From Scleroderma bovista (lineage: Eukaryota > Basidiomycota > Agaricomycetes > Boletales > Sclerodermataceae), in contig JAYMGJ010000145.1 of assembly GCA_037178675.1 (NCBI GenBank), positions 62,001 through 126,000 of the forward strand: DNA of 64,000 nt, written 5' to 3'. The position numbers and the translations under genes are program-made. Below, piece by piece: positions 18,590 through 63,914 of the stretch (position 1 is its first letter; every line of letters starts with the position of its first letter). Below the pieces are notes generated by a model that ran no database searches, was not told the DNA's origin, and worked only from the letters and a program-made list of their open reading frames with translations.

Positions 18590-18657
18590 GATTAATTGGT
18601 CATACCAACCGGTCAGTGTCATACCGGTAGCATACCGACCAGTCACTATCATACCGG
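18590..18657. repeat. ACCGGT-core array, left piece
   Basis: Short array of the type cataccggtagcataccgacc. It is interrupted exactly at a CCGG by family B copy 1 and resumes at 20742 after it. Confidence 0.75.
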
Positions 18658-20741
18658 TGTCACGCACCAAACGTGTTTGGTACTGTGGACATGGAGAAAG
18701 TTAGCTGATGAAACTAATGCGAAGAACACACCCAAGATCTGTTGAAAGATTGTCCCGACTTGAGGGATACAGACAGCCCTCGCTATCCATATCATGCAAA
18801 GTCAAGACTATCCTTATGCGAAGAATGAATACAAGCTCGTCATAGCCATCTATCGCACAAGAATGACTATCCTGGAGCAAGAGATGAATGCCATTGTCTG
18901 GCAGTCATCCCTCGCACAAGAACTGCCAAGAAGCAGAAGAATCCAAGGATTGATGATCATTTCAGTATGAGAGAGGAATGCAACCTACTGCAGTCCAACT
19001 CCCATACCAGAACAACCAAAGAAGCAGAAGAAACGATAGAGAAATGAAGAAAGGAAGAATCATTTTTAGTGCCCAAATGTCAAATTTAGGCGCCCAGTGC
19101 CGGCATTCCGATATTTTGAATAGCTCTGCCATTTTTGAAGCTATCAATCATGTGACTATACCATCATGGAGCCTAGACCGTGGTCTATCTGCCTGTCAAG
19201 TTCAGACGTAAATCTGTTTATTTCCCACGGAGATATTCCACCCACAATCCAGACACCCACTTCATCACTCACTATGGAGTCCACATTTTCTCTGGAACAT
19301 TTCTCTGCTATTGCAGCAGACCTCAACTATGTCCTGCTCTTGGGACAGCCTCTCCCTGAGCTCCTGTGTACTGTCTGGTACATATCTTCCCAGCCTGCTC
19401 CCCCAGTCCCTCTCGTTCTCGGTCAGCGCGTTCTCCTTGTCAGTCCTGCGTCGCGCACATACTTTGGTCGTCTCAAGTCTATCATTAGACTTGAAAATTC
19501 ATACCTGGTCATCTCTGTGTCTCCTGAGTCCTCTGCATATGGTCCTTTCATCCCAGAGTCCTGTCACATCCATCTCCCTCTATCATTCATCTCGCTTCCC
19601 TGGACACGTCGAATCCACTATTCACATTTCACTTCCCTGCTATCCCGCAACAAACACGAATGAAACAGTGCTCTAGAACCCTTCTTAGGAGCCCTAATAG
19701 AGTACAGAACCTTCCCCTTACTGCTCAAGGGAAGACTGCACTTTGGGAGCACCAAAGTTCGCATTTTTGCTCTACAGAAGCTCAATCCAAGGGATTTGTG
19801 ACACTGTGACCAGCTGTGACTCTACTTGTCATTACAGGCCCCCTGACACTGCTCTTCTGGTCGGATCAATTCTTTTATTATCCCCCAGCCACTCCCATCA
19901 GTGGCACTGCTTCAGAAGCTCATCTCCAGATCTAAAGTTCAATAAATCATAGGTTGTGCTTCCCTTCTTTCTGAGTCACACAGAGTCACTCTGGCTCACT
20001 CTGACTCACTCTGCTGCGCATTATTGCTCTTTCCCTTGGCTCAGCAGCTTGTTCAGGCTCTCCCCATCAATGACTCAGCCTGATTACACTGCTTATCAAT
20101 CGCTTACCAATTTCTTACCAATCTCTTACCAAGCACTTAGTCATTTGTGCTTACAGGGCCACAGCCCCTCCTGTATATAAACCAGCAGCCAAAGGCTGCA
20201 AGGAAGTGTCTGCTTCCCCCTCAATAAGGCGACCACATTCACTCTCCCTCACTGTCTATAAGCTCTATCACTGTCTTTGGACTTGTAGGTCACCTAGTGC
20301 TGGCCTAAAGCTCCTATATTGCTGTTTAACAGATATATCTTGTATCTGATCATTTCTCTAGGCTCAAGCGCAGTCTAGCATCACTGTCCACTCTATCCCA
20401 TCACTGTCCATCACATTCTTGAAGCAGGAACTGTCCCCTTGCTTCCCTGTTGCTCCATCACTGCTGTTACACCCCTGTTGCCAATCTATCATCACTGCTC
20501 AATCCCAGGACTCTTCCTAACCACTGTGGTAGGCTGAAGAGGAGTCAATACCATCCCCAGTCACATTCCATCCCCATCAGAAGCCCTTCCCTTCCCTCCT
20601 GCATCCTGCCTGAAGGCGTGCAGCACATCCCCCTGAGGAGATTAAATACCAGAAACACAAAGGAAGACCACCACTCGCATTTTGCTGTCATTTGGTGTTG
20701 GTTGTTGGTTGTTCTGACCTCTTCCCTCACTTAGGCGCACA
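18658..20741 (+). mobile_element. family B LTR-like element, copy 1 (2084 bp)
   Basis: Begins TGTCACGCACCAAAC and ends TTAGGCGCACA (TG..CA), and is flanked by CCGG on both sides inside the ACCGGT array, giving a 4-bp target duplication. No reverse transcriptase, integrase or primer site is attached. It contains a 165-residue ORF (19166-19663) and direct AT-rich promoter-like sequence near its end. Related copies lie at 47266-49592 and 32163-34320 (both minus), with a 5'-end fragment at 49594-50183. I read it as a solo LTR of a large-LTR retrotransposon; a non-autonomous DNA element is the alternative. Confidence 0.7.
19166..19663 (+). CDS. unknown ORF inside family B element, copy 1
   Basis: 165 residues, not recognised. 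The core reads MESTFSLEHFSAIAADLNYV, then LLLGQPLPELLCTVWYIS, PLVLGQRVLLVSPASRTYFG and LPLSFISLPWTRR. The same core, shorter or longer at the ends, is open in two other copies (48586-49083 minus and 33339-33731 minus). Between this copy and the 33-kb copy many differences are silent, including an Arg codon changed from CGC to AGG, which hints at past protein-level selection. No domain, signal or membrane segment is evident. Confidence 0.45.
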   Translation: MEPRPWSICLSSSDVNLFISHGDIPPTIQTPTSSLTMESTFSLEHFSAIAADLNYVLLLGQPLPELLCTVWYISSQPAPPVPLVLGQRVLLVSPASRTYFGRLKSIIRLENSYLVISVSPESSAYGPFIPESCHIHLPLSFISLPWTRRIHYSHFTSLLSRNKHE

Positions 20742-21170
20742 CCGGTAGCATACCAACCAGTAACTGTCATACCGGTAGCATACCGGTGGCATACCAACCA
20801 GTCAATGTCATACTGGTAGCATACCGACCGATCACAATCATACCGGTAGCATACTGACCGGTACCTGTCATACCAGTGGCATAACAACCAGTAGCATACC
20901 GGTAGCATACCAACCAGTCACTGTCATACCGGTAGCATACCAACCGGTCACAATCATACCGGTAGCATATTGACTGGTAACTGTCATACCGGTAGCATAC
21001 CAACCGGTCCCTATCATACTGGTAGCATATTGACCGGTAACTGTCATACCGGTAGCATACCAGTGGCATACCAACCGGTCACTGTCATACTGGTAGCATA
21101 CTGATCGGTCATTGTCATACTAGTAGGATATTCACTGGTCGTGGCAATACTGGTAGGATAAGTATACTGA
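20742..21170. repeat. ACCGGT-core array
   Basis: Degenerate tandem units of the form cataccaaccggtcac.gtcataccggtag, about 40 bp per higher unit, built round ACCGGT palindromes and their one-base variants (accagt, accgac). It continues the left flank of family B copy 1. Confidence 0.85.
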
Positions 21171-22237
21171 CCAGTAATGGTGATACAGTAAAGTGATTTA
21201 AGTATGAGAATAGCACTCCGATGATTGTTGATTACTAGTGATGGTGAGACTGGATTGCTCAGGTATGAAGCCAGCAGGTATGGCATACACTGGACACCAA
21301 GACATGGTCCTGACTTCCCAATCAAGTTCCCTCACTCTGCCTATAAGGCCATATACTTATGAGAATAGCACCCCAATGCTTGTTGATTACTATAGGGGGA
21401 CACCAGACTGATCAGCCATCCAGCTGGAAACTTTACACCATCGATATCTAGTAAGACCCAGGGTGAGTTATGTTGAAAGAAAGGTGTACTATGCTGGCAG
21501 TCTGTCAAGACCATGTCCAACTCCGGACTCTTATCCGGTTACTCTGGTCGCATCGCAGCACTACAGCTCAACTCCGGACCTCTGCGCATCACTCCGGTCC
21601 CGGACGCACACATACTCTTCCGCTAAGTGCGACCCTTTGTATTAATCCCTATCCAGTCGTTACTTCACTCCTCCGTCAACCCTGTAGTACCGTGAGTTCT
21701 CCGTGCTCTGTTTATATCTTCTACCTTGTAGTATTTTCTCCGGACCTTACTTATTTTTGTCGGACCTGACCTAGTCCCAACTCTGGTTATTCCTTGTCCA
21801 CCCTTTGGGCTGTTTACTTGTCACCATAAATACTCGACCCTAGTTCTCCGTAGTATAAGTACCCTGTACTCCGTCCTGTATACCTCAGTCTGAAATCAAC
21901 TATAGTCACTATTCCTGTTCCTGCTTGTCTCTATCTCCGCCTCCGTCTCCTCTTGACTGGAACCTACGCAAGGGATCAACGCTCGATCCCCTTGTCATTG
22001 AATCCAATCGGTCTCAACTCCAGCCGGACTAACTCCTTGTCCAGCCCCTGTCCTTCCCCTTCGTCCGTTTCCGTCCGGACTTGACCGGACCTCTTACCAG
22101 AGTAGACCTGGACTTGACACAGTCAATCACCCTGAGACCTGTGGGATTCTAGGAATACAATGCCCATGGGCAGGGGTACATTCGGAACACACTTCCGGCT
22201 TCCGGCAACTAGTTAAGATATACCGGTTGCAGTTCCC
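21171..22237. other. leader of the TET/JBP gene, CCGG-rich and pyrimidine-rich
   Basis: From about 21480 to 22110 the plus strand is strongly C/T-rich and carries many tccggac or ccggac copies. Such pyrimidine-rich stretches are common just upstream of fungal start sites. No ORF is recognised. It ends shortly before the first ATG of the dioxygenase gene. Confidence 0.5.
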
Positions 22238-23336
22238 ATGGCTTTCAGCACAAATCAGTCATTGACTGCTTCATTGCATCCTCCATACAGACACATCCAA
22301 TATTGCCAGATGGCCACATTCAACACGGGTGTCACTGACTATCACCTATCTGAAAGGATTGCTGGCTACATGCGCCGGCGATTTCGCCATCTGGCACTAG
22401 ACCCCGATTTTCCCCGGCCTGCACTTCCATTGGATATTCCATCCCATGGTTGCATCGGGATGAACCAATTGGTTTCTGTTCTTGTTAAGGCATACAAATA
22501 TTCGGAGTAAGTTCATTGCATGGCTCTAACATACCATCTGACTTTCCATCTCAGTTCCATCTGGCATTGATCTCATATGACTTAGTGAGAGCCTGTCTGC
22601 AATGGAGTCCGGAGCTGACATGAAACGAGAGGCTCAGCTCCTAGAGAACCACCCACCAGCGATCAGGAGCACCAGTAACATGCCTGCTATCTTATCGGAA
22701 CCAGCAATCATCCTTGGGGAAGGAGATAGCATCGCTTTGTGGTACCTTCCAGGTGCCTTAGCTAGGCCAATTCAGGTATGGTGGTTGATATTATGCATGC
22801 CTTGTCTGACATGTAGGTAAAGAAACATATTGTTACAGGCCTTCAGCCTCTTGGTGACAACCTCCGGAAGAGTATCAAAAACCAGAGTTGGAGAAACTCT
22901 GATCAATACTTCCAACCAGGAAGTACACCATCCGGATGTCTGGAGTTTTCACCAGCTAGGCATTTGCAAGGCCACTCGGTAGAGTTATATCTTTCTTCAG
23001 AAACAAACATAATTAACCTCAGGTACAGACAAGGAAACACACACCATCGGTTTCTGCAGGGCTTGCAACACCGGCAGGCAAGGAATGGGGAAAGAATATT
23101 TGCCTCCCATCTGCCCTCCTTTCTGGTGCACTATCTATAATGCACCCTCCACTCTATCATGCCGGTCTAGAGGCAAGGCAGAGGCTGGATGCATGGTCTA
23201 TAGAGAACGATCCTGTGATGCAGGAAGCACTGGGGCATTGGTCGACCGTATACACAAATCTCTCACTCATTTCCAATCGGAAAACACCTTTGCACCGAGA
23301 TCCCCAGTCCCGGTCTGATTGGTTTGATCTACTCGC

Positions 23337-23611
23337 TGAAAAGATAACAATGTGTTTGGGTGGCTGCTCCCTCAGATGAGGTGCATTCAACCCAGGGACT
23401 TCTGGAGGTCTGGCAAGGCTCCCAAGGACTAAGGAGACTAAGAAACTAGAGAGTGGAAGGGTGGTTCAGTCACTCCAAGACTGAGCTCAAAGATATACAC
23501 TGAAGAGGAGGATATTGCTTAGTAAGCTAAGTACAAGCCTACATAGCTAAGGTAAAGAGTCCAGTATCAGTACTACCAATCTACACACCTAGAGACAGGA
23601 CTGTCTCTACA
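23337..23611 (-). repeat. family A solo-LTR-like element, copy 3, inverted
   Basis: This is the reverse complement of copies 1 and 2, slightly shorter (275 bp), with the same TG..CA ends. Flanks are TCGC on the left and TTGC on the right: a 4-bp target duplication in which one CpG has become TpG. Removing it joins GAT CTA CTC GCT to ACT GTT GGT in the frame of the dioxygenase gene. Confidence 0.75.
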
Positions 23612-23733
23612 TTGCTACTGTTGGTGAATATCAAGATTGCTTCCTTAATATCCCAACCCTTGGAGTTCAGCTGGAATATAGCCCGGGCATGGTTGTAGCA
23701 TTTTCTGGTAGGCTCCTCAGGCATGGAGTGATC

Positions 23734-23738
23734 GAGGA
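23734..23738 (+). other. target site duplication GAGGA of the chromovirus
   Basis: GAGGA at 23734-23738 is repeated at 31413-31417, directly outside the two LTRs. A 5-bp duplication is usual for Ty3/Gypsy integration. Confidence 0.9.
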
Positions 23739-24362
23739 TGTCAAGACCGGTTCTTCACCGATCTGATCTCTACGAGGGGTCAGGGGGTCAGGGGTTGGTC
23801 TAGCGGTAAGACCGAGATGCTACGTAGCGTAGTCGCGCTTCCCGAATGATAGGAAGACCGACCGAGGGTCTGACGGAGAGTCCGAGGGTAAACGGTCTAT
23901 GACCGAGTGCTTGCACGAGACAGAGATGGAGAGTGCGAAGGGAGAACAGAGGAGAAGTATCTTATTCAATATTCGAACTGAAACTACAACAGACCGAGTA
24001 TCTAGGTATTTATACTGAGTGGAACGGATGAGGCGATGTACGGGAAGTCGGGATTACCGACGAATGACGAGCGCAGTCGCGCTGCGCGCTGAGTAAGTAT
24101 GGTAAGTGCGATAACCGGATTACCGATGAGTATCGTATTAGTAATGCAACGGGACGGGAACGTATAGTAACCGGAAACAAGAAAGGAAACATATTAGGTA
24201 ATCGTACAGGGAGACAGAACGGACAACACGCTCACTGATTGGTGGCGATACAAGACAGATAGAGAGAAACGGAAAAGGGAGTACATACAATAAACGGACG
24301 GCGAACGCGTGGACGCGATCAGACAATAGGGTACAGGGTGATCGGATGTCACGGTCGTGACA
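23739..24362 (-). repeat. chromovirus 3' LTR
   Basis: 624 bp, matched by the other LTR at 30789-31412. In element orientation it starts TGTCACGACC and ends GGTCTTGACA. Confidence 0.92.
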
Positions 24363-24376
24363 GTATCCCCCTCTTA
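24363..24376 (-). promoter_or_regulatory. polypurine tract of the chromovirus
   Basis: In element orientation TAAGAGGGGGATAC directly precedes the 3' LTR, the expected place for plus-strand priming in reverse transcription. Confidence 0.7.
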
Positions 24377-24458
24377 GGGCCGAGCCCACGAGGCTGCAAT
24401 GCGTATTCCACACCGAATGTGTGCGACCATTGTCTGGGTTTGAAAATCGGTTAGGGCG

Positions 24459-24466
24459 TATATAAG
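24459..24466 (+). promoter_or_regulatory. TATA box of the antisense gene
   Basis: TATATAAG lies about 62-69 bp upstream of the ATG at 24528, on the strand opposite to gag-pol and just inside the 3' LTR. Confidence 0.5.
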
Positions 24467-24527
24467 ACTGGCCTTCGGTGATGGTAGCCCAACAAATCCT
24501 CTTCTTTCATATCTTACTTGATTAACC

Positions 24528-25589
24528 ATGTCCGCTGGCAACAACAACACCGATTGGATGCGCGCCGCTTCGCCCGAGTTGGAAGGGAAACCGACCGACT
24601 CAATACAAGTCCAGATCGCGAAGTTCGACGAGCAATCGCGGAGACGTTGGGAGCGATTGATGAAACAGGCGGCCGAGCAAGAGGCGAAGAGGTTGGCAGA
24701 AGAGGCTGCGAAGAAGAAGGCTGAGGAGGAGGCGAGGAGAGTCGCCGAGGAGAAGCGGAAGGCCGAGGAGCAGGCGAAGAAGGTCGCCGAGGCGAAAGCG
24801 CGGGCCGACTTCGAGGCAAGGCGCAAGGCCGAGGCGGAGGTGAGGGTGAAGGAGAAGGCCGCGTCGCTGGCGGCTGGGGAGGAGATGCGGGCGCGATTGG
24901 GGGGAAAGCCCAAGGTGCGTGGTCGATTAATAATTTTATTTGATTTCGCTGACTTATTATTTGGTTAGCCTCGCCAAGTCACTGCTCGTTCCAACACGGG
25001 CATTATGGGGTTCAAGCCCCCTTGTGACCGATGCAGGCGGAGCGGCGACAGCGGTGGGTGCGAGCTGGCCGACGGAGCGCGCACACCGACGTGCGGTCGG
25101 TGTCAACGATCTAAGGTAAAGTGTACCTTCAACGTGTCGACGTCGGCGTTGGAACGGTCGGCGAGCGGAGAGAAGAGAAAACAGAGCGAGAAGGCGGTGG
25201 AGGTGGAAACGTCGCCGAGAGGAGGCGAGAAGAGGAAGCGGACGAAGAAAACGATCGCCGAGGCCGCGAGTACGGAGGAGATCAAGGTGGCAATGGGAGG
25301 ATTCTCGGTGGCTGGGCCATTGAGTCGACCAGACCCAGTCGCGCTGGTCCTAGACCGCCGACTCGGGGAAATCGTTGCAGCGATTGACCGCAACACCAGA
25401 GAGCTGGCGAAGCTCGGTCAAAAGGTGGAAGGGGTCGCATGGGAGACGAAGAGGGTGGCCGACGCTAAGGACCCGAAGGGCAAGGGCAAGGCGATGCCTG
25501 AGGAGAGCGAGGAGCAGCAAGAGTCGGACGAGACGGACGGGGAAGGCGAAGAGTCGGGGGACGAAGACGGAGAAGGCGAGTCCGAGTAG
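24528..25589 (+). CDS. antisense spliced gene within the chromovirus: coiled-coil plus zinc-cluster protein
   Basis: Exons 24528-24914 and 24969-25589 with a 54-bp intron (GTGCGT..GGTTAG) encode 335 residues on the strand opposite to gag-pol. Residues about 35-120 are a long Ala/Glu/Lys/Arg heptad-like coiled coil (AEEAAKKKAEEEARRVAEEK). Then comes a six-cysteine cluster C-x2-C-x8-C-x10-C-x2-C-x6-C (CDRCRRSGDSGG..CGRCQRSKVKC), similar to a Zn(II)2Cys6 DNA-binding domain with longer loops. A basic stretch (GGEKRKRTKKT), a predicted helix and a very acidic tail follow. It has its own TATA box and no nonsense codon, although gag-pol has four. It ends just beyond the 3' end of pol (25682), so the two transcripts converge. 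Function unknown; a regulator of the element is a guess. Confidence 0.65.
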
Positions 25590-25681
25590 TCAGACTGTAC
25601 ATGTAATTGTATTTAGTTTTCCTTTTTCTTTTACTTTGTTTTGTACACTTTAAATAGACTTTGTTCGGTGACTTGAATGAC

Positions 25682-28600
25682 TTAGCGTGAGAGGCTTTCT
25701 AAGGGGCCTGGCTTAGTCGGGTAGGCTTTGTGGTAGTCGGCCACAAGTTCTGAGGCGTGTCCGAGCTCGGTCGCGATCAACCAAGATGTTTCTTCATCGG
25801 TACCTTCGTAGCCAGCCCATCTAACTAGGTAGAGGAGTGGGCATTGGCGTCGACGTCAGTCGAACTTTGAGTCGAGGATCTCGGTGATCTCGAACTTGGG
25901 TTCGCCGTCGACTTCGATGGGAGGTGGTGGAGGTTGTGACCGATTCGGTATTGTATTCGGTGTCGCTGGTTCGAGTTGTGAGACGTGGAAGACGGGGTGG
26001 ACAGCACGCATAGAGTCGGGGAGACGGATCGTGAATGATAGAGTGCCGACTTGGGCGATGATTGGGTAGGGACCGAGATTCCTCTCGGAGAGTTTCTTTG
26101 ACGGTCAGGTAGACCTAAAGTACTTGGCTTTGACGAATACTTGATCAGCGACTTTGAAGTCGGGTGCGGGTGATCTTCTGGCGTCAGCAGGGCCTTGGTA
26201 CCTTTTCTGGGCAGCAGCCATTTCTTCACGTAGGTACTCATGCAATGACTCTAGGTCAACTGCGTATTCCCTTGCCCGAGCCGATGAAAGATCGCGCTCG
26301 GGGTACACAGCGAGGTTTGGGTGATATCCTTTATTCGCGAAGAACGGTGATACACCGGTCGTAGCGCTAGGGGCATTGTTGTAGGCGAACTCGGCGAGAG
26401 GTAGTAGGTCCGACCAATTGTCCTGCTGGTAATTGCAGTACATCCTGAGGTATTGCTCGAGTGTTTGATTAGCTCGCTCGGTCTGTCCGTCACCTTCTGG
26501 GTGATAGCCCGAAGTGAAATGTAATTTCATATCTAAGGCCTTACCGAGTGAACGGAAGAAATGCGAGACGAACTCTGAGCCTCGGTCAGACGTTACATGC
26601 ACGGGGACGCCGTGCTTAGCGAAAACGTGGAGTAAGAAGAGCTGTGCGAGCTCGGGGGAGGTTATTGTGTCGTGAGTCGGGATGAATATGGCTTGCTTTG
26701 ATAGTCGGTCAATGACTACCAATATGGCTGTGAAGCCAGATGAGGACGGGAGCTGCTCGATGAAATCCATTGAGATGGAATTCCATGGTCGGTCGGGGAC
26801 CGGTAATTGCTTGAGCATCCCATAGGGTCGGTGATGTGGCGTCTTAGCTCGGGCGCAGGCCGTGCAGGACTTGACATAGTCCTTTACGTAGGTACGAATG
26901 CCTGGCCATGTGTATTCGCAACGAATGAGCTCTAGAGTGCGATTCTGACCGAAGTGTCCCGATAGGGGATGGTCATGCTTGTATCTGAGGACACGAAGAC
27001 GTAGGTCATCGGCCTCGGGGACGTACATGCGGCCATCGAGACATAGGTAACCAGTCTCATCGGTCGACCATCGGGGGTTCGATGTGTCCGAGAGGTGGGC
27101 TTTAGCGATTGGATCGGTCGGGAGGTTGGCTAGGATATCAGCGTGGAGACGCTCGACGTCCATGAGTGCACTAGCTCTGAGTACTGGAGCATGTAGGTAT
27201 GTCGCGCGAAGAGAATTGGTGAGCTGTTCAGCCGTGAACACCGGTCGGAGGTTCTGTGGATTGACTCGGGCGAAGCCCCTATCCCCCTCTTTGGGGTAGA
27301 CGTCCCAGCGTCTAGTCAAGGCGTCGGGCTTTGCACCAAGTTTACCAGGTCGGAAACAAATGATCAGGTTGAAAGAGGAGAGGTATTCCGACCATCGGGC
27401 TTGCCGACGGGTGAGAACCTTAGAGGTGGAGAAATATTCCAAATTTTTGTGGTCGGTCACGACGTCAATCGGGAAGGCAGGGCCCTCCAGATAATGATGC
27501 CAGGCCTTGAATGCTTCGAAAATAGCGAGAAGTTCCTTGTCGTGTGTATCGTAGTTCAGCTCGGGCGCAGTTAGAGTGCGAGAGTAGAACGCAATCGGTC
27601 GTATCTCGTCATCCGAACCTGTGATGGATAGGATACCAGTGATCGCGTAGTCCGAAGTGTTGGTCTCGACTGTCAGTTGGGCGCCTGGCTGGAAATGGGT
27701 AAGGATGGGAGCTGTGGTGAAGGCCTTCTTGAGTTGGTTGAATGACCATTGGCAGACGTCGGAGAAATCCCAGGGGGCATCTTTCCGTGTCAACCGAGTT
27801 AAGGGAACCACTATATCGGAGTAATTGAAGATAAATCAATGGTAAAAGTTCGCGAAGCCCAGGAAGGATTGAATGTCCTTCACCTTGCGAGGTTCGGGCC
27901 AATCGCAGATTGTCTTGACTTTGTCTTGCAACATCGTCAAACCGTCGGGGGAAAGGAAGTACCCGAGGTACTCCACCGAGTCCAAATGGAACTCACACTT
28001 TTCGGGTTTGGCGTAAAGCTTGTGCTGGCGAAGTCGCCAAAGCACTTCCCGAACGTGTTCAGTATGGTCCTCCATGTTGTCCGAGTAGACTAAGATGTCG
28101 TCGAGGTAGACTACGACGCAGACATCGAGCATGTCCACGAAGACCGAGTTGACGAACCGCTGAAAGGCTGCAGGGGCGTTGGTGAGACCGAAGGGCATCA
28201 CCTGCCACTCATACGAGCCATAGTGAGTCCTGAAGGCGGTTTTCCACTCATCACCTTCGGCAATGCGAACCAGGTGGTAAGCATGTTGAAGATCAATTTT
28301 CATGTAGACCTTTGCTTGACTCGGAGAGTTGAGTAGGTCGGAGATGAGGGGTAGGGGATACCGATCCTTCTTTGATATTTTGTTGAGTCCTCGGTAGTCG
28401 ACGCAAAGTCGGAGAGAGCCATCCTTCTTCTTTACGAAGAGGACAGGGGCTGCATGGGAGGATGAGGTCGGACGGATGAAACCAAAGCGAAGGTTTTCGT
28501 CGATGAATGCCCGAAGGGTTTCGAGCTCGACGGGGGAGAGAGAGTAGAGTCTTCCGGGTGGTAATGGCGCTCCTTCTTCCAGTTCTATCTTGAGGTCGTG

Positions 28601-29406
28601 TTCCCGATGAGGTGCGAGTACCGATGCTTTCGCCTTGCTAAAGATGTCGGCAAAGTCGTGGTATGCCTTGGGGACAGAGGAAAGGTCGGGAGCAACGTCG
28701 ACCGACGCTGCGCGAAAGCTGCCGTCAGGCTTTAGCTGAATAGAGAACTGTTGAGAGCCATCTAGCTGACAAGCCTTCAGAAAGGCTGCAGCGTTGATGA
28801 GAGCGATAGGAGGTGCCCGAAGACCGGGAGCCTGAGGCGAGTCGGTCGGAGAAGGAGACGAGACTGACGTAGCGTCAAGTCTCAGCGTGCTCGGTGAGGG
28901 CGCTACAGGGTTGGGGAGTGAGCTTGGGGTTGGCACTTGCTGCGTAGATGTTCTGAACTTGATACTGCTCAATACCCAGTCAATCGACGGATTGTATCGG
29001 GTGAGCCAGTTGTGTCCGAGAACGATCTTACAGTCAGAGTCCAATGGGGTGACATAAAATGTCATCGGGGTGACGTCGCCAGAGGGAAAATGGATAGGTA
29101 GATCAGTTGCTTCGGTGATTATGGTGGTGGTGGTACCGTCGAATAGACGGAGAACGATCGGGGATACCGAGTAAGTGGAAAGAGTGTTCATATTTGCAAA
29201 CGACGGATCTACAAAACAGTGGGTAGAACCCGAATCTACTAACACAGGAAAGGAAGGCATAGTATGGTCAACAATTGTTACAGAGGGTCGGAGAGAATTT
29301 GGATCGGAAAGAGCGGCTGCGTTGAGTCGGGCCTCCATAGGTGCACAGTCGGGAACAATGCAACTCCCACTCTGTGCGGAGTCTCGGGAGTTGCTATCTA
29401 TTTTTT
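25682..29406 (-). pseudogene. chromovirus pol polyprotein (PR-RT-RH-IN-chromodomain)
   Basis: Read from the -1 frame after gag. Aspartic protease [13 protein letters not shown] (about 29230). Reverse transcriptase with [20 protein letters not shown] and the catalytic [12 protein letters not shown] (about 28110). RNase H with KELLAIFEAFKAWHHYLEG. Integrase with an HHCC region (HDHPLSGHFGQNRTLELI .. CTACARAK) and a DDE core (SMDFIEQLP, VTSDRGSEF, SGYHPEGDGQTERANQ). A C-terminal chromodomain YLVRWAGYEGTDEETSWL ends at the TAA 25682-25684. In-frame TGA codons at 27836-27838, 26105-26107 and 25856-25858 stand where the family has arginine (for example FY-R-R-FI and T-R-PSKKLSE). About 1240 residues, normal for the family, and otherwise collinear. 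Chromodomain elements are known to target heterochromatin through histone marks. Confidence 0.9.
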
Positions 29407-30747: not shown

Positions 30748-30788
30748 AGATGATTGTGAACTCGTACAAGACTTTAGTTCAAATATAC

Positions 30789-31412
30789 TGTCAAGACTGG
30801 TTCTTCACCGATCTGATCTCTACGAGGGGTCAGGGGGTCAGGGGTTGGTCTAGTGGTAAGACCGAGATGCTACGTAGCGTAGTCGCGCTTCCCGAATGAT
30901 AGGAAGACTGACCGAGGGTCTGACGGAGAGTCCGAGGGTAAACGGTCTACGACCGAGTGCTTGCACGAGACAGAGACAGAGAGTGCGAAGGGAGAACAGA
31001 GGAGAAGTATCTTATTCAATATTCGAACTGAAACTACAACAGACCGAGTATCTAGGTATTTATACTGAGTGGAACGGATGAGGCGATGTACGGGAAGTCG
31101 GGATTACCGACGAATGACGAGCACAGTCGCGCTGCGCACTGAGTAAGTACGGTAAGTGCGATAACCGGATTACCGATGAGTATCGTATTAGTAATGCAAC
31201 GGGACGGGAACGTATAGTAACCGGAAACAAGAAAGGAAACATATTAGGTAATCATACAGGGAGACAGAACGGACAACACGCTCACTGATCGGTGGTGATA
31301 CAAGACAGATAGAGAGAAACGGAAAAGGGAGTACATACAATAAATGGACGGCGAACGTGTGGACGCGATCGGACAATAGGGTACAGGGTGATCGGATGTC
31401 ACGGTCGTGACA
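30789..31412 (-). repeat. chromovirus 5' LTR
   Basis: 624 bp, partner of 23739-24362. It supplies the presumed promoter for gag-pol on the minus strand. Confidence 0.92.
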
Positions 31413-31544
31413 GAGGAGGGTGGAGACCGATGTTGCCTCGCATACTACATGCGGGATAACATTCATAATTGGCTCGGAGTCCCCAGGCCAGATCCAATGA
31501 GGCTTCACAAGGTCCAGGATGCGTTGTTGCAGTTGGAGGTGTAG

Positions 31545-31761
31545 ATTACCTTAATTGGCCATGACTGGTAGTCCAATACATGTTTCTGGCAGGATATGCT
31601 TTATCCATGTAGAACAATATGCTACCGGTATGACTGTTACCGGTCAGTATGCACCGGTATGACACACCGGTTGATATGCTCCTGGTATGACAGTGACCAG
31701 TCGGTATGCTACCAGTAAGACACTGACCGGTCGTGATACTGGTATGACTCTGACTGCCCGG
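31545..31761. repeat. 3' flank of the dioxygenase gene and ACCGGT array
   Basis: After the dioxygenase stop, units such as atgctaccggtatgactgttaccggtcagt start near 31620. They run to 31761, where family A copy 2 is inserted at a CCGG. Confidence 0.75.
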
Positions 31762-42560: not shown

Positions 42561-42568
42561 GTACTACA

Positions 42569-49592: not shown

Positions 49593-49593
49593 G

Positions 49594-54190: not shown

Positions 54191-54904
54191 GCGCCCAGTT
54201 TGGCAAGTCTGGCCCAGCCTGGCCCAGCATTGCACAACAGTGACAGACACTCCAATTAACCCAGTAGAGTACATACAAGTCCCAACTTAAAATACCAATA
54301 AAAAAAAGAGATCACACAAAAGTAATAAGGCAAATGAGTTTTATTCCCGAGTCATACAAGTTCTAAGTAAGCTAATTAATAAAGTCCTTGTTGCATTGGT
54401 GGTGGTTGGTGTTGTCATTGTTGATGCACTCGTGGCCATTGCTGTCGCGTTGGTGGTCGACAACACTGCTGGTAGTGGTGGGTGACCCCATGCACCTACT
54501 TAGGCCGTCTTACACGGCCACCCGAAGGTGAAAATTGGCCGAGTGTCACGGACCAGCGGATGGTAGCCCAGGAATAATTTGTTATCGATTGCCACGGATG
54601 GGCTACCTACTTAGATATTATCACAATGTAATATGGGTGGGCTAGATTGTCAATTAAGGGGAGGGTGAATGGGTTAAATTAAATATTGTCATGGAAATTA
54701 ATGGGAGCACATAATTTGTGCTCACTATATCATTCGGGTGGGCCCAGGCCTGCCTTTCATTCATGTCATTGGACAAGCCCATATTGTATTATCATGTAGG
54801 TGTATAGGTGAGCTAAACCAAATCAGAGTAGCAGGGGGCACCAATACACAAATGGCACTGCGGTAATTACCCCGGGATTATTGTCAATAATCAGGGGTGT
54901 TCCT
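54191..54904. other. spacer left of the second element
   Basis: It contains ggtggtggttggtgttgtcattg-type low complexity near 54400. No gene was recognised. The left boundary of the CCGCGG-marked element probably falls here, but I could not find a terminal repeat. Confidence 0.4.
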
Positions 54905-55165
54905 ACCGCGGGTAAAGTGTCACTACCGCGGGTTTGTAATCACTACCGCGGGTTAATAATCACTAGGTTGGTAATCACTATGAGGGGTTGGTCATCACAT
55001 CCACGGGGTATGGGTCACTACCGCGGGTTGGTAATCACTACCGTGGGTTAATAATCACTAGGTTGGTAATCACTACGAGGGGTTGGTCATCACTACCGTG
55101 GCTTGGTCATCACTACCGCGGCTTGCTCGTTACTACCGCGGGTTGGTTGTCACTACCCTTGGTAT
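54905..55165. repeat. 20-bp minisatellite with CCGCGG core
   Basis: About a dozen units of the form cactaccgcgggttggtaat, with variants that have lost a CpG (ccgtgg, ccacgg) or the whole core (cactaggttggtaat). It lies beyond the 3' end of Y2, as the ACCGGT array lies beyond Y1. Confidence 0.85.
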
Positions 55166-56409
55166 GTGGAATGATTGCAGGCAGGTATAATTCCATATTG
55201 TGTGATAATGTAAACCACATGCACCTCCTTAGGCTGATGCATACAACCACACCAGAATAAAAATCGGCTAATCAGTACAACACAGAACAGGACTATGCTA
55301 GAACCATGGTCAGTTATAATAATGGCACAGTAGGTATGACCCATGATTTTATAATATAGGTATATAGGTGAGCATGTTCAAATCAGTCCAACACAAGGGA
55401 CACCACTACGCTAATGGCACCGTGGTAATAGCTATTTCAAATAAGCAGTCACTACCACGGGTGAAGTGTGACTACCACGGGGGGTGTAATAACTACAATG
55501 TGGGGATGTAATTACAATAGGTAATGGAAACTGCCGTGGGATTAATTCAACTACCGGGGGTTAGGTTTAGGGACCACTAGCGTATGAAACAGGATGGAAC
55601 CAATGTTTGGAAAGAGGACATGCTGCAGCATATAGGCGACTTATTGGTATTTGATGTCAGTAACACACCTATTACTGTGGGAACAAAAATACATAGTGAC
55701 CGCAGGTATATTAAATGATGACTGGTATATAGGTTTATCCTATATAAAGGAAGTATTAAATAAAAACTAACACTAGGGTTGTTGGATCGCTCTGTGCATG
55801 GCAATTATTCAAGGACTATGAATGGTGACATAGTATCAAGTGGAAAAGTATTAACCGCGGCAACATTTCCACCGGAACAAAAGTATCAACCGCAGTGACC
55901 ACCATGGGAGGCATATATTAACATGAAATGGAAAATATAATTTGATTGCATTATTGGGGTCATAGATGGGTTATGCAGTACACCGATGCAACCGCGGTAG
56001 CTACTGTTGGGTAGTAGAATGACACCGCAAAAGTGGCACAATCCACGGTGGTGACAGCTCATGCAGGGTAGATAGTACCACACACAATTCAGTGAAATGT
56101 ACCATTCAAATGAAATTATTTACGACGAATTACTGGACCCCTGGTGATAAGTGGGCGGGACTCAGTTGGCATACCAGGGCTGCTAAATAATTAACAGCAT
56201 CTGTGCACAATCGGGGGTAGAATATTTTTTGGGTGAAACAAACAAATTGCATTCATAAAGTAAAGGACAAAAAAGAATTTAATACATGTGAACCGAAAAA
56301 ACAATGTCTGGTGGCAAAAAGAAATGTTGTAAAAAAGAAAGTACAAAGATGTATGAATAAAGCAAATAGTCTGTGCAAAAACAATGTATGAATGGAGATA
56401 AAAAAAATA
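55166..56409. other. intergenic, scattered CCGCGG motifs
   Basis: Contains further accgcgg, accacgg and accgtgg words (for example near 55440, 55855 and 55990) and an A-rich stretch at 56225-56410 before the Y2 stop. I see no gene. Confidence 0.5.
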
Positions 56410-58401
56410 TTAAATGTCCATTTTATTCCCTTCCACAGCGCCTACACATCCCTCATCTGAAACCGCGGGTGCGGGAACTGAGTTATCGGGGACATTGGCG
56501 GGACTTATGATGATGATGGGGGGAGGAATCGCTTGGGGATCCAGAGGCATTCCATCACCTTCTGTAACGTTGGGAGACTACAGGGGATGTAAGTAGCGAA
56601 CCATGGGTGAATCAATAGGACTTACCGCGGTGGTGGGGACAGAATCCCTGGCTTCATCCACAGCCATTGCATCGTCTGTGGAGATGATGAAGGGAGGGGG
56701 GCGTGATGGAGGCACATGGTCATCGCCAGCAGGGCTGGGAGACCGAGGCGGATGTCTGTCTTCTACCGCGGTTGGACCCCAGAGAGTGTTCAAGAGGTCG
56801 GGGGCAATGGATCCCACATGGATCGCGATGGTGGTGGACGCATCAGGCAAAGATGATGCAGGCGGCTGTGGGGGCGATTCCATGCTTGCAACCGCAGGTG
56901 GTGTGGGATCCGGTCCATGGTCTGCAGGAGGGACGTCGGGGGAGCATGCAGCAGGCGAGGGCGCACGGAAAATCGATGCAGGACTTCCAAGTGGGGTGGA
57001 AGTCTGCATGGAAGGGGGAGGGGGCAGTTCTGGATGGACAATCAGCGTACCTGACCTCAGACTCTCCATGAGCTGGCGAAGAGTGTCCATTTGAACCTCT
57101 TGCGCCTCCAGCCTACGTGTCACATCGCCCAGCTTCTCCTTCAAGTCCGAACATTCGCTGCAGGCGCTTGTAGTTGTCGCCGTGGTCGTATGTTCGCTGT
57201 GTTCGGTGCTTGTACCGTGGTCCCTTGATTTTGAAAGCCATCGCGGTTGCACTATCAGCACTCCATCAAATTCTGTTTAGATTTTCAGCAGAACGGAGCA
57301 AAGGAAATATTTAACCTACTTTCACGTCTGCCCCTTGATGGGCCAAGTGTGGAAGGTCCAGCTGTGGCTGCTGGACGTGGAGAGGGGACATCCATGGGCG
57401 CGGGACTTTTGGCTTTGCGTTTGCGAGCGGAACGGGGAGGGTTGGTACGGGTTGGGGCAGCAGTAAGTGCTGGTGATGGGGCGGGGTCGGGTTGGCTTGT
57501 CCGTGTAGCTGGTGCACGGGACTGCGATCGCGACCTGACGCGCTTGAGTGACAAGCTGCACCCATGCTTCCCCTTGTTGCATTGGAAGCATGCACGATCC
57601 TCCTTCCTGGCACAGGGTAACATCCGACGGGCGCAGTGGTCACATCGATCGGCGGCGGGAAGGATTGGGAAGTCGGGAGGGGGATGGTGAAGGTCGTAGG
57701 TCTTGGTTACACCGCGGCGGGTAGGCTTCGCAGTGTCTTCGTCATCGCTGTCGACAATGGGGGCGGACTTGACGCGTTTACGAGGGCGACGGGATTGGCT
57801 ACGTCCCCGAGTCTGCTCACGTCCACGGCGACGACTTCTTGCCTCCTCTGCACCAACTGGCTCGGATGGGCTGACCTCATAGCTACTCACCTCATATGCC
57901 CTTTGCTTTCCCTTATCAACCCTCTGCATCTCTGCCTGCTCACCATCCACCCTGCCTTCGTTGCTCGGTTCCGGAATATTTTCACCGCGGTTGCACCACG
58001 GATGGTCGGAGACACTGTCTGCAGGGGATTGGAGCATTTGGGGCCACTTTGGCCACGTTGTAATACCCTCGGATGGATCTTCCAGGTCGCGATCAAGGGC
58101 CATGAGCATGGGGGGAATGCTGAAACCGCGGGGTAAGTTCCCCACCACCTCTCTGACGCGGTTCTGACGGTTGTTAGTGGCATTGAACTATGTTGAATAT
58201 TGGACTCACCAGTTGGGCCCAGACATTGCGATGGACCTCCAGCCATGACGCAGTATCCTTCGTTTTCTTAATAGCTGCTACTCTGCCGGTAATAATGCTG
58301 GTGGCATCCGCGATAACTTCTCCAGGGGTCATGGGTGTTCCGAAGTCTTCGGGAACGTTGGATGGGGATGGGACTTGGATTTCGGATTGTTGGGTGGACA
58401 T
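56410..58401 (-). CDS. Y2: zinc-cluster / coiled-coil protein, second copy
   Basis: Exon 1 58401-58210 (MSTQQSEIQVPSPSNVPEDF, helical, WAQL at the donor). Exon 2 from the acceptor near 58175 carries NRVREVVGNLPRGFSIPP, TTWPKWPQMLQS..DHPW, SRSQSRRPRKRVKSAPIVDS and the cluster CDHCARRMLPC..ACFQCNKGKHGC (C-x2-C-x6-C-x7-C-x2-C-x6-C, the same spacing as Y1). An exon from about 57272 holds a coiled coil (CSDLKEKLGDVTRRLEAQEV) and a Pro-rich region. The last exon (from about 56580) has IPPPIIISPANVPD and ends in KMDI, TAA at 56410-56412. About 600 residues, with no nonsense codon seen. It is divergent from Z2. The gene itself contains several CCGCGG words. Nuclear DNA binding is inferred from the zinc cluster and basic stretches. 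Confidence 0.68.
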
Positions 58402-59257
58402 AGTTTTGTAGGAGTGAGATGAGTGAGAGAGGAAAACAAGTTTGCGGTGTGGAAGCCGCGCGGTATGTTGAACATTTATTATGATTAGGTCAGCAGATGT
58501 CACACACCCAGACTGACCATTGGTATGTCATCAGGCGCCAAGCCACGTGCTAATAATCTCCGTTTAGCTAGTCAGGCACCAACATCAACGTGTAAATTTA
58601 ATCACCGAGGTATAAATGGAATTGAAGGTCTCATAGGATTTTTGAAGGGAACCCACCGCGGTAACATACAGTATTTTAGATTTAACAGTATAATGGGTGC
58701 AGTATTAGTATCAAATAGACCACACACAGCAATGCTTGTACAATTGTGATTGCATATTGTGATTGCATAGCTAGTGCAAGCGACATTATTCACACTAACC
58801 CTTATTGGATAAAATAGCCGCGGAAGGTAAACACAATCGGAAGGCATTTTCGTCGGGTAAATGTTGAAATGTAGGCTGGACACCTGAAGTCCACTACAAA
58901 TATAATGTGTGAAATTTCTCTGCTTTCTTGGAAAGCATAGAAAAGTATACCCGCAATGTCTAGTGACGGAACAATGACCGCGGGTGTGCTAAACCTGTTT
59001 CATTGTCTATTGTTATCAGCAAATACTGACCTACAGCGCTACAATTAGGCTTGTTCATACCTAAACATTTCTACAAAAAGATAGAACAATTGCAATCCAT
59101 TGAGAGTGATATATAGTACCCGAATTCCACCCTAGATTCCAGATGTCTTAATGGTGGGAAATATCTTATGTAAGCATTCGACCCGAACATATATGATCGC
59201 GGCCTGTGAACACCAAGCCCTTGCCAGCCTTCTTTATTTCATACACAACCACCAACC
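58402..59257. promoter_or_regulatory. divergent Y2 / Z2 promoter region
   Basis: 856 bp between the start codons. It contains CCGCGG near 58655, 58818 and 58978. It corresponds to the 465-bp Z1/Y1 spacer of the first element. Confidence 0.5.
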
Positions 59258-60668
59258 ATGACCGGACCAGCTAGGAATGTTAGATTTATCGATGATGGAG
59301 CAGCCAACCCTGGTAAATTGTTATATTGGAACTGTCTTTGGCATTTGAGATTGATTTTGGGCAGGTTTATTTGGTAGCCCAGGGTGGACACCTCCAAAAA
59401 GACGGTCTCTGAGCAGAACATGTATGTATCCTTCATGTACACTTTAACAGTACTCATTTTATGTTTACAGCAAGTGATAATAGCACTGGGTGGTGTCCAC
59501 CCGATGAACCTCCCCCTCCACCCGCGGCAGACCCGATGTCTATTGAAGTGGATGAAGGTTCGTTCCCCATGCTTGAATCACCTGTGGGTGCGAGGTCTGA
59601 CATCTGGGCTGAACCAGGGGTGTTGCCAAGTCCCGAGTGGGACCCTCCTGCATTTCCACCCACATCAACACCCGACCGCGGGGATGTAGCCAGCACACCC
59701 ATGCCTCAAACATCGTCTGACTCATCATCCGACACCGACACCTCAGAGGATAGCCAGGGATGGATCCCTCCCCCTCTACCGCCATCACAAACCTTTCCCG
59801 AAGTGTCCCCAAGCCCTACCTCCGATGGAAACTCATCACCCCGGCCGATCACACCCATCCGCGCAACATCACCTGACTCCTCCGATACTGACGCGTCGAA
59901 GGACAATGAAGGATGGACTCCACCTGCACAGCCAGCATTATACATACCACTGACATCGCCAATGTCAGTTTCGTCCGTTCAGTCCACCCCTTCAAAGTCA
60001 CCCCACGGATCACCATCGATGGCTGGGTCCCCACTCTTCTCAGGGACAGGTGAGCCAACTGAGAGCGGATCTAACCCAGAGGAAAGATTCTTTGAGAATT
60101 CCTTGCCAAGGGTAGTTGGTACGAGCCCCATTGCACATCGTAGGTTAGTGGATAAGGGAAAGGGAAGGGAAGCGGAATCGGGCCCGGTGAGCGGATTCCC
60201 TGCAACATGTCCCAAGGATATGGAAGGTTAGTTAGGCCTTGGTTGGAGTTTCCTACACTGACACCATCGTAGGGGAATGGTGGCACTTGCTGAGAATGAT
60301 GGCCGACCTGGAAATTTACAAAGGTAAATTCAATTGCCCGCGGCATGAATGTGAGTGCATTGACATCTCTATTAAATTGATATTGACAATCAATAGTAAG
60401 CACAGCGCGACAGATTGCAGCCCGCTTCCACCCCAAGGACGGCAAAATTACCCGCCTGGACAACTCCTACGACAAACCGCTTATTGCGATGTACATGCAA
60501 TACGCGGACAAGTTGGTGGAAGAAACTCGGGAGTGGAGGAGGCTCATTGCATTGAGGGCACATTATGCTGACATCATAGATAAGTTGGAGCAAATTGATA
60601 AGGGTGAGATGGAGGGCACACAGATTGCCATGGATCAATTAGAAGATTTACACCCATCAATGTTGTAA
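59258..60668 (+). CDS. Z2: unknown acidic/proline-rich protein, second copy
   Basis: Exons: MTGPARNVRFIDDGAANP (59258 to donor GTAAATTG), GLFGSPGWTPPKRRSLSRT, then from the acceptor at about 59470 SDNSTGWCPPDEPPPPPAAD with PMSIEVDEGSFPML and a Ser/Pro/Asp-rich region with SSDSSSDTDTSEDSQGW and its near-repeat SPDSSDTDASKDNEGW. A short exon EWWHLLRMMADLEIYK follows, then the last exon IARQIAARFHPKDGKITRLD, LIAMYMQYADKLVEETREW and RRLIALRAHYADIIDKLEQI, TAA at 60666-60668. The VRF start, MS-I/V-DE block and C-terminal QYA..LVE.T..W helix match Z1. No break seen. No known domain. Confidence 0.6.
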
Positions 60669-60879
60669 TTACAATTGGTTGTCTGTTTTTATCTTGAACA
60701 AAAAACATTCAGTTTGTACAGGGATAAGCACTAGCATGGTGAGTATGATGGGCACCATGGAGTGATTGATTTTGGATCCACACATTGTGCTTGTGATAGT
60801 CCCCGCAGTAGCGATGGTCACCATGGCTGTAATCCACACCTTTTGTTCTAAATGGTTCTAAACATCATGGTACCACGTG

Positions 60880-61140
60880 AATCATATATACCGCGGCTCT
60901 CATATATACCGCGGCTATTACAGACATATGTGCTTGCGACTGTCACCCCAGTTATAATTCAAACCTTTGGCTGAGGTCAATAGTTGTAAATACCGCGGCT
61001 ATCATACATATTGTGGATATGGTACATGATGCCACTGTGCTGAGACGCCTTGGTTGTTACTACCCCGGGCATTATCCATACCGCGGCCTTACGTACAACT
61101 CCTATATACATGCTGTGGCTATTATACACATACCGCGGTC
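60880..61140. repeat. CCGCGG array between Z2 and X2 stops
   Basis: At least five taccgcggc-type words in about 260 bp, with decayed versions (tattgtgg, atgctgtgg). It fills the gap between convergent Z2 and X2, matching the ACCGGT array between X1 and Z1. Confidence 0.8.
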
Positions 61141-61306
61141 GTGATCATCACCTTGTTTTGACCCACCCAGTGGTCCCATATTTGATGTATGTACTTTACA
61201 ATACATATGAAATAAACCTACGTTCGGCGCCTCTTTTGTATATGGGCGTCATCATAATCCTCCAGCCTGGGCGGGAGCCTTTTTGGCCGGACCGACTGCC
61301 GCCTTA

Positions 61307-63914
61307 CTACATTCTTTTCCCCGCCATCGCATTTGTGTTGGAGTTGGAGTGATGAATCTCCTGCATCTTCTTTTGAGCCTTATGAGTAATTTGCTTGATG
61401 GGGCCACAATGCATACCTTGTGTAATGGCGGCCCTCGAAAGACCCGCGGCCGGCACTTGAACTGACGGACCACTCCGTTTGGCAACTTCGGAGGGCTGGG
61501 CTGGACGTATATCAAATTTGTAAGAATAAATTTATTTGTGATGCAATACGAAGCACTCTTACCTTTTGTCTTCAACCTTGGTTGAGCCGCGGTGGAGGAA
61601 GGGCCGGCACTTGTCACCTGCATGGAGTGAGTGCTGTTATCAGTGACTCCCTGATGTTTGTCTGCATGTAGATATTACATATATTAGCGTCAGGATATAT
61701 TCAGTCCATCCGAAGATCATTACCTTTGGGCTTAAGCAGTGAGTCAGAGCGGGGTATGTCCACGGCAGACACATCCACCGCGGGTTTACTCTTTCCTGCC
61801 ACTGCACTTTGTTTACCTGGATATTGTATCATATCAATTGTCCTAATTGCATGTATTACTTGATAGGAACACTCTCACCTTTGCTCTTTGTCAATGGCTG
61901 AGCAACAGAAGCACCTGTGGTCACTATCTGATCTCCGGCGGTCTTTTGTTTCTCTGCATATAAATATTATATATAAGGTGAGTTCTATGTGGGACTTCAT
62001 AAGAACACTCCCACCTTTTGTCTTTACCCGTGGCTTGGGTTTGACACACACTGCGGTACCCGCGGTCGGAGGATTCCCGGACCCAGCAGGCATAAAATAT
62101 GCTGTGTTTGGGGGGCCCACTTTAATACTGTGATGCCCTGTGGAGTCACCGTCGTACAGATCCGAACTGGAATCTATGAAAACATATCAATGTATGTTCC
62201 TATAGTAATCCAACCTACCCTCTATATTTTTTCCAGCATGCTTCCGCTTTGATCTTTTTTCGCGGCCATTCTCAGCATTCCCTGCAACACATCAACAATA
62301 TCCCATTGCATGAATAGATATTCTTACCTTGCATATGTTCTTGGCCGTGGCTATCCCTCACCACCCCCGCATCCTTAGCAGGACCCATGGCATTTCCATG
62401 AGGCGGCACCGCGGGCTGAGTGTCCTCTTTGTCCTCATCATTTGACGTGTCTATCAATGGCTCTGAGTGTTTGCAAATTTAATAAGATAATATTTACCTT
62501 CCCTGCGCTTTTTGCCTGTTCTCTTTGCCGCACTCTTGTGGTTGGTGTTTGCAACCGCGGCCTGTAGCGACCCATCCGACTCTAACCACCTCTTAACCTT
62601 GAAGGTATTCGTGGGATCACTCAGTTGCCTATCTCGCCACCACTCCAATATTTCTGTCGCCTCCTTATTCGTAAGCCTGGATGGTTCCTTGAATGCGACA
62701 TTGGTGGGCCAATATCTGCCCGATATATATGTGCCGCGGTCAAGCACAATTGCTGCCCATGGGACAGCAACATCGGACCGGCCACAAGCCTGTCCTGTTG
62801 TGACACGGTGAGTGTTTGATCCATGGAAATTATTTACATACCATAGTGAAAACTGATGAATGCGCGTACTACATCCTTTTTGTCCTGGGTGTTCATATTC
62901 AGGATGACCGGGATGTAGGGGATGCCATCTGCATCTGTTGGAAGGTCGAACCGCGGGCGCCTTTTACATTTGACAATCTTTCTTGGAACCGCATCCTCGG
63001 TATCTTCACCACTTTCCTCCTCCACACCAAAGACCTGGTGAGCATATCGCTCCCACTTGTTCTCCACGCTGTCCCAGCCCTCAAAGAGTTTCCCATCGCC
63101 CAATTCGTCATTGAAGTCGTGCCTATGTGTTTCAGTAATAATATATGCAGTCATTAACCACGCTCACAGGCCATACATAACATCCCCCGTGGCACCTTTC
63201 CAAGCAGCCATCACAACCACTCTGGCACCGCATTGTTTCCACATTTCCTTTGAAAATTCGCGGGCAAACTTCCGACCTTTTCCTTCCGCGGTTCTATCTG
63301 AAGTTTCAGTACCATGCTGCCACGGGATAAGAGTCTCACCTTGCTTGGATCTCTGGGGGGGGGTGGGTATCATTCCATTCCTTGGCTGTCTTTTCTGCCC
63401 GCTCGATGTTCTCCGCGGTCAGTCTCTTTATCACTTTGCCCACCGCCCTCTGATAATTTTTAATATACCCGCTGGAACCCGGTGCATGTCCTGCTCTGGC
63501 AAGCACATCATCTATTTTTGCCTTCTCTTGGTCCGCTATTACCATGCGGGCGGTCCACCTGCGGCCATATTTGATGAGCTGTTTTTTCTTCCGAGTGCGA
63601 GAGTGATTATACAGCCAATTCTGAATGGCCTATGAAAATACAAAATAAGCCAACCTCTCCATAAGTGAGGGATCACTCACCTTCTTCTTTATCACCCATT
63701 GGTGACTCTTGAGTGTCCTGTTGGCCTCCAGCCTTTGAACACTGCTTGCAATGTCCTTGAAAATGGACTTCCTTTTTGTTGCATCAGCCGCCATCCACTG
63801 TTCCAGTTTCTCCTGGACAATGACGACCTCATCTTTGCGAAGGGGGGTCTTGCCTTGCCCAGTGGCATCAGACCTCTCACCGCTATCGCTCTCACTGTAC
63901 TCAGATTCGGACAT
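61307..63914 (-). CDS. X2: unknown accessory protein of the KDZ element, second copy
   Basis: Starts at ATG 63914 (MSESEYSESDSGERSDATGQ). Multi-exon: AIQNWLYNHSRTRKKKQLIK..WTARMVI, AEKTAKEWNDTHPPPEIQAR, MWKQCGARVVVMAAWK, LHDFNDELGDGKLF, DVVRAFISFHY, VAVPWAAIV..VAFKEPSRLT and ILEWWRDRQLSDPTNTF. Then several short exons each ending near a KPK/KTKG block, and a basic tail ending at about 61307 (HSNSNTNAMAGKRM). The exon joins correspond one by one to those of X1 (for example VMYG-LHDFN against VMAG-IHDFN). No nonsense codon was found. The C-terminal exons and the exact stop are less certain than the core. Function unknown. Confidence 0.65.

Follow-up and report, generated by a model that had tools for sequence, protein, structure and literature searches.

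TnpA, encoded by the maize CACTA element Spm, binds short words that are repeated near the ends of that element, and it is linked to demethylation; it is unrelated to the zinc-cluster proteins described below. In the Arabidopsis VANDAL elements, both DNA binding and hypomethylation have been measured for the VANC proteins (PMC5735166, accessible part of the text). TET-bearing KDZ (Kyakuja, Zisupton) transposons of Agaricomycetes are present in many copies per genome, and an escape from methylation has been proposed for them; the same 2025 survey supposes an untargeted action of TET in Agaricomycotina (PMC12730594, accessible part). Zn2Cys6 factors typically read CGG triplets (PMC5559640, accessible part). 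Here we describe two KDZ transposons, called elements A and B, in a 64,000-nucleotide stretch of the Scleroderma bovista genome (C145:62001-126000, hereafter the window). We propose, with a probability of about 0.6, that each element has a word of its own that contains CGG, together with a diverged six-cysteine protein of its own; this protein is predicted to bind the word and to act mainly on its own family.

Each element carries its own short word

Genome searches covered 51.8 Mb in 850 contigs and their counts are lower bounds. Expected word counts derive from a dinucleotide model, and shuffle maxima from 200 dinucleotide shuffles.

An earlier note, made from the letters of this DNA, had described a saturation with ACCGGT and its one-base variants in one element and its replacement by CCGCGG from 54.9 kb on, with about 35 copies in 9 kb and roughly 3 in the first 54 kb. 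The counts agree with this description. The window contains 61 copies of ACCGGT, 59 of them within 18591-50190 (4.9 expected), and 38 copies of CCGCGG, of which 35 lie at 54906-63413 (1.2 expected) and exactly 3 before element B (4902, 8429 and 32253). Element A, without the Gypsy element nested in it (23739-31088), holds 55 ACCGGT, the shuffle mean being 2.7 and the maximum 8. The whole of element B, which runs past the end of the window, holds 80 CCGCGG (2.2 expected; shuffle maximum, 8). The change of word coincides with the change of cassette. Each word is 20 to 40 times above expectation in its own element and does not exceed background in the other (one CCGCGG in A without Gypsy, 0.9 expected; 5 ACCGGT in B, 3.6 expected) and neither exceeds background in the flanks 1-18590 and 50191-54489. 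CCGCGG stops with B: in window coordinates, its last copy inside the element is at 73533 and the next one at 75025. The ACCGGT copies at 18608, 18623 and 18653 lie just beyond the mapped left end of A. Chance as the source of the words is ruled out by these counts against expectation and shuffles, and CpG content as such by the confinement of the excess to specific words.

The ACCGGT stretch that had been seen as saturated is uneven: the word is dense near 20.7-21.1, 31.6-32.1 and 41.7-42.4 kb, in arrays of 30-bp period (20737..21139, 31618..32134 and 41724..42455), and only 4 copies lie in the nested Gypsy. B has an array of 20-bp period near its left end (54903..55157), and its sites are distributed between the 8.6 kb of roughly mapped exons (27 sites) and the other 10.8 kb (53 sites), with a median spacing of 153 bp.

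One-base variants of ACCGGT are enriched, as had been noted. Many of them are CpG transitions (ACCAGT, 50 vs 16.4 expected), although ACCGGC, which is not a CpG transition of ACCGGT, is enriched as well (31 vs 4.3 expected). The CpG-transition variants of the B word are also in excess (CCACGG, 31 vs 9.7 expected; CCGCAG, 15 vs 6.6 expected). This excess would fit methylation of those CpGs in silent copies.

Association of the words with the zinc-cluster gene

Elements A and B have in common a CxC2-KDZ transposase gene, a TET/JBP gene, a gene without assigned function and a zinc-cluster gene. Identity between the two elements is 75% in the KDZ core, 70% in CxC2 and 41-70% in the TET pieces, and only 27-35% in the zinc protein. 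The earlier note asked whether the word tracks the transposase; the partner is most likely another one, since KDZ cores 75% identical go with different words. The word goes with the zinc-cluster gene, which that note did not name. No tyrosine recombinase was met among the transposases found, which were of the KDZ type, although no search aimed at tyrosine recombinases was made.

The same word is found in other copies of the CCGCGG cassette. Among 30 loci with relatives of the B zinc protein (54-100% identity), 27 have CCGCGG as their most enriched palindrome, and 198 copies lie in the flanks of the 30 loci (7.0 expected). Even a locus with 48% identity shows enrichment outside the gene (4 vs 0.2 expected). 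A clade at 32-35% identity (three loci) has CGGCA instead (85 vs 15.3 expected). At a locus with 29% identity and two stops in the zinc gene (L073), TCAGCA is found (12 vs 4.6 expected) where other loci of the CGGCA clade have TCGGCA. A fourth clade, represented by one locus, shows ACGGT weakly (18 vs 6.4 expected) as well as CGGCA (12 vs 5.2 expected). CGG is present in every one of these words, namely CCGCGG, ACCGGT, CGGCA and ACGGT. The clade labels are based on identity and frame length rather than on a tree, and several of the entries are pieces of one copy.

The linkage was also found starting from the words. A bare pattern of three CCGCGG has 28 matches in the genome, in comparison with 1 for the reversed control, and these correspond to 20 arrays. 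A zinc gene is present within 20 kb of 13 of them, and the nearest one belongs to the B clade in 11; the two exceptions are on contig C572, near a gene of the CGGCA clade. The matches of the ACCGGT pattern merge into 25 arrays, and those of the TCGGCAGAACA pattern into at least 16 (100 of 310 matches listed). When the three patterns are pooled, leaving out the 17 of 61 merged arrays that have no zinc gene within 20 kb, 41 of 44 arrays lie beside the matching zinc clade, while 200,000 permutations reached at most 28. An ACCGGT array on C380 makes up the third exception. The bare word is tested by the CCGCGG pattern alone, with its 11 of 13. Among the 17 zinc-less arrays, 9 are within 7 kb of a TET match and 8 are not. 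A broader ACCGGT-pair pattern is twice as frequent in the genome as its reversed control (868 vs 419).

The words could also be recognition repeats to which the KDZ transposase or its CxC2 domain binds, the zinc gene being a passenger. Dense arrays do lie near element ends (in B at 54.9-55.2 kb and close to its right end, in A beside the inverted repeats), and the zinc gene is co-inherited with the transposase. However, at 30 loci (26 distinct sequences) centred on the best KDZ matches, 28 of them without a zinc gene within 20 kb, ACCGGT (13; 12.1 expected) and CCGCGG (8; 10.8 expected) are at background, as they are in the window flanks, and no palindrome is on top in more than 4 of the 30. 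In addition, the sites run across all of B, and a Gypsy element that has a zinc gene and no KDZ match among the matches listed also has a CGG word. Because of these control loci, the Gypsy word and the different words of A and B, the partner of the word is most likely not the transposase, and we consider this explanation unlikely.

Some CCGCGG arrays were observed in other contexts. At C816:839-3191, two inverted arrays lie about 2 kb apart with no listed zinc or TET match nearby; this is perhaps a non-autonomous element using CCGCGG in trans. CCGCGG triples also occur in other repeats away from listed zinc or TET genes (C8:118177, C314:195511, C513:41583 and C43:19208).

The zinc-cluster proteins

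The zinc-cluster gene of A (exons in 44445..46348, forward strand) encodes the arrangement CX2CX6CX7CX2CX6C in 45299-45835. That of B comprises two reading frames (56578..58187, reverse strand), with the domain in 57285-58187. In both window frames the cysteines have the spacing of fungal Zn2Cys6 factors. Tested as CX2CX6CX5-12CX2CX6-9C within one frame, this spacing was found in 27 of 30 B-clade loci and in 5 of 6 other zinc loci, in comparison with 1 of 34 other loci, as by chance.

The Pfam profile Zn_clus scores the A protein at 11.8 bits and the zinc protein of the Gypsy at 16.3 bits, with no match for B; in a set of 11 zinc proteins it matched one, under the cut-off. Since the cut-off (21 bits) is not reached, the proteins are called Zn2Cys6-like. 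A profile search against PDB sequences gave 0 matches, and Foldseek with the model of the A domain gave four, all of them Zn2Cys6 proteins. The six-cysteine protein would probably fold as a Zn2Cys6 DNA-binding domain. In the genome, the zinc protein of B has 131 matches and that of A 135, in lists that overlap largely; 27 entries were typed as A-type.

Turnover of the sites and selection on the zinc gene

CCGCGG is enriched 42, 32, 36 and 18 times over expectation in four subgroups of the B clade. Close copies have most site positions in common. The flanks of B (L008) and of a member of the 63% subclade (L032), which align at 53% identity, have none (10 vs 12 sites), and the same is true for L032 and the flanks of the 48% locus (44-45% identity); L020 and L032 have one. 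Over all the pairs examined that align at 44-54%, one position is in common. At 75% flank identity, L008 and L020 retain 5 of 10 sites, in comparison with 23-29% for other 6-mers. The density of the word is maintained despite this turnover. The zinc gene itself is under purifying selection: the ratio of nonsynonymous to synonymous substitution rates (dN/dS) of its frames is 0.21-0.28 in the B clade, with dS at saturation in the 48% locus; in the CGGCA clade it is 0.29-0.51.

These data bear on the possibility of a neutral spread, in which slippage and gene conversion of tandem arrays would have multiplied the words and these would be no more than marks of descent. Some sites do lie in arrays of 17-, 20- or 30-bp period, and two of the three array patterns hold family-specific letters, so that their linkage to a zinc clade reflects descent. 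However, many sites are isolated; in flanks that can barely be aligned and have almost no site positions in common, the word still stands at 18-42 times expectation; and CGG recurs in all words. Neutral spread is, in our opinion, very improbable.

A CGG word in the nested Gypsy retrotransposon

The Gypsy long terminal repeat (LTR) retrotransposon nested in A (23739..31088, reverse strand) has 300-bp LTRs that are 98% identical, and integrase and RNase H domains. Antisense to pol, it carries a zinc-cluster gene (24522..25589, forward strand; Zn_clus 16.3 bits) with 126 relatives in the genome, about 70 of them highly identical and some 30 with 27-36% identity. No KDZ match lies within it among the matches listed. 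Its word is TCGGTC/GACCGA, with 35 copies vs 6.5 expected (z 10.8; best 6-mer in 100 shuffles, 5.5); without the LTRs there are still 26 vs 5.8 expected. One coding frame contains 9 copies vs 1.6 expected, a count reached by 0 of 1000 codon-preserving shuffles, so that codon usage alone does not explain the word; the counts of two other frames were reached by 70 and 13 of 1000. The word result corresponds to one Gypsy copy. A triple-GACCGA pattern had 6 matches in the genome vs 155 for the reversed control, its spacing being too tight even for the LTR of the window, which makes these counts uninformative.

Proposed mechanism

We suggest that the zinc protein most probably binds the word of its family and acts on that family. 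Bound along the element, it would switch on the genes of the family and would assist the TET/JBP enzyme encoded by the element in removing cytosine methylation from the CpG-bearing words, much as VANC does, without TET, for VANDAL elements. Decayed copies with CpG transitions in their words would drop out of the system. The last step may be activation of element genes, counter-silencing with TET, or both. The self-recognition put forward in the earlier note thus finds partial support: the element-specific words are real and the idea would fit them, and the partner of the word is most likely not the transposase.

The zinc protein could instead simply activate transcription of its own element, as an ordinary factor, having neither an anti-silencing role nor a link to TET. 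In favour of this reading, the CGGCA arrays among the matches listed are, in 16 of 16 cases, upstream of a zinc gene and on its strand; the two LTRs contain 9 of the Gypsy words; and a TET match within 25 kb is lacking for about half of the zinc genes. However, sites also occupy genes and intergenic parts distant from likely promoters, and the words contain CpG and show CpG transitions in excess. Moreover, zinc and TET genes are often in one element: 76 of 144 zinc entries have a TET match within 25 kb, and 72 of the 150 TET/JBP domain matches in the genome have a listed zinc gene within that distance, both counts being depressed by short contigs. We find a pure activator doubtful, although it keeps some weight.

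Several observations limit the reading that we prefer. The words are not fully exclusive: A without Gypsy also holds some GACCGA (16 vs 5.7 expected), and CCCGAC is a second enriched word of the Gypsy (22 vs 6.2 expected). The low identity of the zinc proteins is not unique, since another pair of open frames of A and B (35.1-35.5 and 68.4-68.7 kb) is similarly diverged (29%). Maintenance is established for the density of the word and not for single sites; for instance, L008 and L018, at 75% flank identity, retain 2 of 10 sites, not above other 6-mers. Loci L001-L004 contain 21 ACCGGT (0.6 expected), but they were picked by the ACCGGT-pair search and this enrichment is no independent test. The KDZ control serves B fairly and A less well, because a similar-sized stretch around the KDZ core contains 12 CCGCGG in B and only 2 ACCGGT in A. 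Finally, the array patterns with family-specific letters detect family copies by construction.

A wider proposal, which we make tentatively and at somewhat less than even odds, is that KDZ transposons and Gypsy, two unrelated classes, use one naming code. In this code a CGG word and a zinc reader would direct transcription and, in KDZ, TET/JBP to the own copies, as separate co-evolving systems of self-recognition against silencing. Transposon-coded TET/JBP enzymes are known in fungi, and a word-plus-reader pair in each family would be a targeting code. If this is true, sequence-specific anti-silencing, known from VANC of Arabidopsis, would have evolved anew with a different protein and perhaps in a retrotransposon as well, and the families would offer natural matched protein-DNA pairs to study changes of Zn2Cys6 specificity. 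Literature searches, whose coverage left out most subscription papers, found no report of a word-plus-reader pair, and the one joining KDZ and Zn2Cys6 found no paper combining them. The accessible parts of PMC8889193 and PMC12810828 contain nothing of this kind, nor do the terms 'zinc', 'CxC' or 'subterminal' occur in that of PMC12730594.

Layout of the elements and neighbouring features

Genes of the KDZ/CxC2, Plavaka, NACHT-WD40-like and Gypsy types are among those of the window, a set that would fit a basidiomycete, probably an Agaricomycete. Element A (18655..50186) is bounded by inverted repeats of about 2 kb: the left one (18655..20745, forward strand) is 93-96% identical to the right one (47262..50186, reverse strand), whose tip (about 593 bp) is doubled. 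The TET/JBP gene of A is split in two because of the insertion of Gypsy at 23739-31088. Its first part (22217..23763, forward strand) was located by a Tet_JBP match (C145:85101-85736) and by tblastn with the TET gene of B, and the remainder past Gypsy (31392..31541, forward strand) by comparison with B. The exons of the CxC2-KDZ transposase gene are in 35721..39426, on the reverse strand (Pfam KDZ, 106 bits; CxC2, 88.5 bits).

Element B (C145:116490-135901) measures 19.4 kb (54490-73901 in window coordinates, the part within the window being 54490..64000) and has 180-bp inverted repeats of 76% identity. Its Pfam matches are KDZ (109.2 bits), CxC2 (95.3 bits) and Tet_JBP (65.1 bits). The gene without assigned function is located at 62454..63980 in B (reverse strand) and at 39972-41031 in A; Pfam gave no match on 62454-62963. 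No convincing target-site duplication was found for A or B, the TET-bearing Kyakuja lineage having 7-bp duplications and CA..TG ends; Rfam had 0 matches at gathering score.

A Plavaka transposase remnant (50096-50452, 88 bits) is present between the two elements. At 12873-15531 there is a STAND-type gene with NPHP3_N/NACHT and WD40 repeats, the latter made of 129-bp DNA units 84-88% identical, which we take to resemble fungal incompatibility-type genes. A 35-bp minisatellite of about 38 copies (17103-18431) adjoins the left side of A, and similar letters adjoin ACCGGT on contigs C5 and C32.

Comparison with known systems

The zinc proteins resemble Gal4, Ppr1, Leu3 and Pho7 in their cysteine spacing and in their putative sites, CGG being paired (everted in CCGCGG, overlapping in ACCGGT) or single. 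Unlike those factors, as described in the accessible part of PMC5559640, they are transposon-encoded, score below the Pfam cut-off and are short, the domain lying in their middle or C-terminal half.

Both elements have, according to Pfam, a KDZ transposase domain with a CxC cysteine cluster, and, like the TET-bearing KDZ transposons, they combine this transposase with a TET/JBP gene, which in A is broken by Gypsy (PMC12730594, accessible part). Kyakuja of Laccaria is described there as lacking terminal inverted repeats, whereas A (about 2 kb) and B (180 bp) have them, and for this reason they are not filed as Kyakuja.

The closest likeness in organisation is with VANC/VANDAL, as far as the accessible part of PMC5735166 describes it. 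In both cases a protein is coded by the element, short words are dense in their own family and differ between related families, the words lie partly in tandem arrays, and protein and words diverge together. However, the transposase is here of the KDZ type and not Mutator-like, the predicted reader is a six-cysteine zinc-cluster protein, the host is a fungus, a TET/JBP gene is present in the same element, and words are also found inside genes. Binding and hypomethylation were measured for VANC; in A and B their counterparts are predicted from sequence. With another transposase and another reader, the A/B system is no member of VANC/VANDAL; it appears to be a transposon-coded, family-specific recognition system working in a similar way, and possibly one that aims the TET enzyme.

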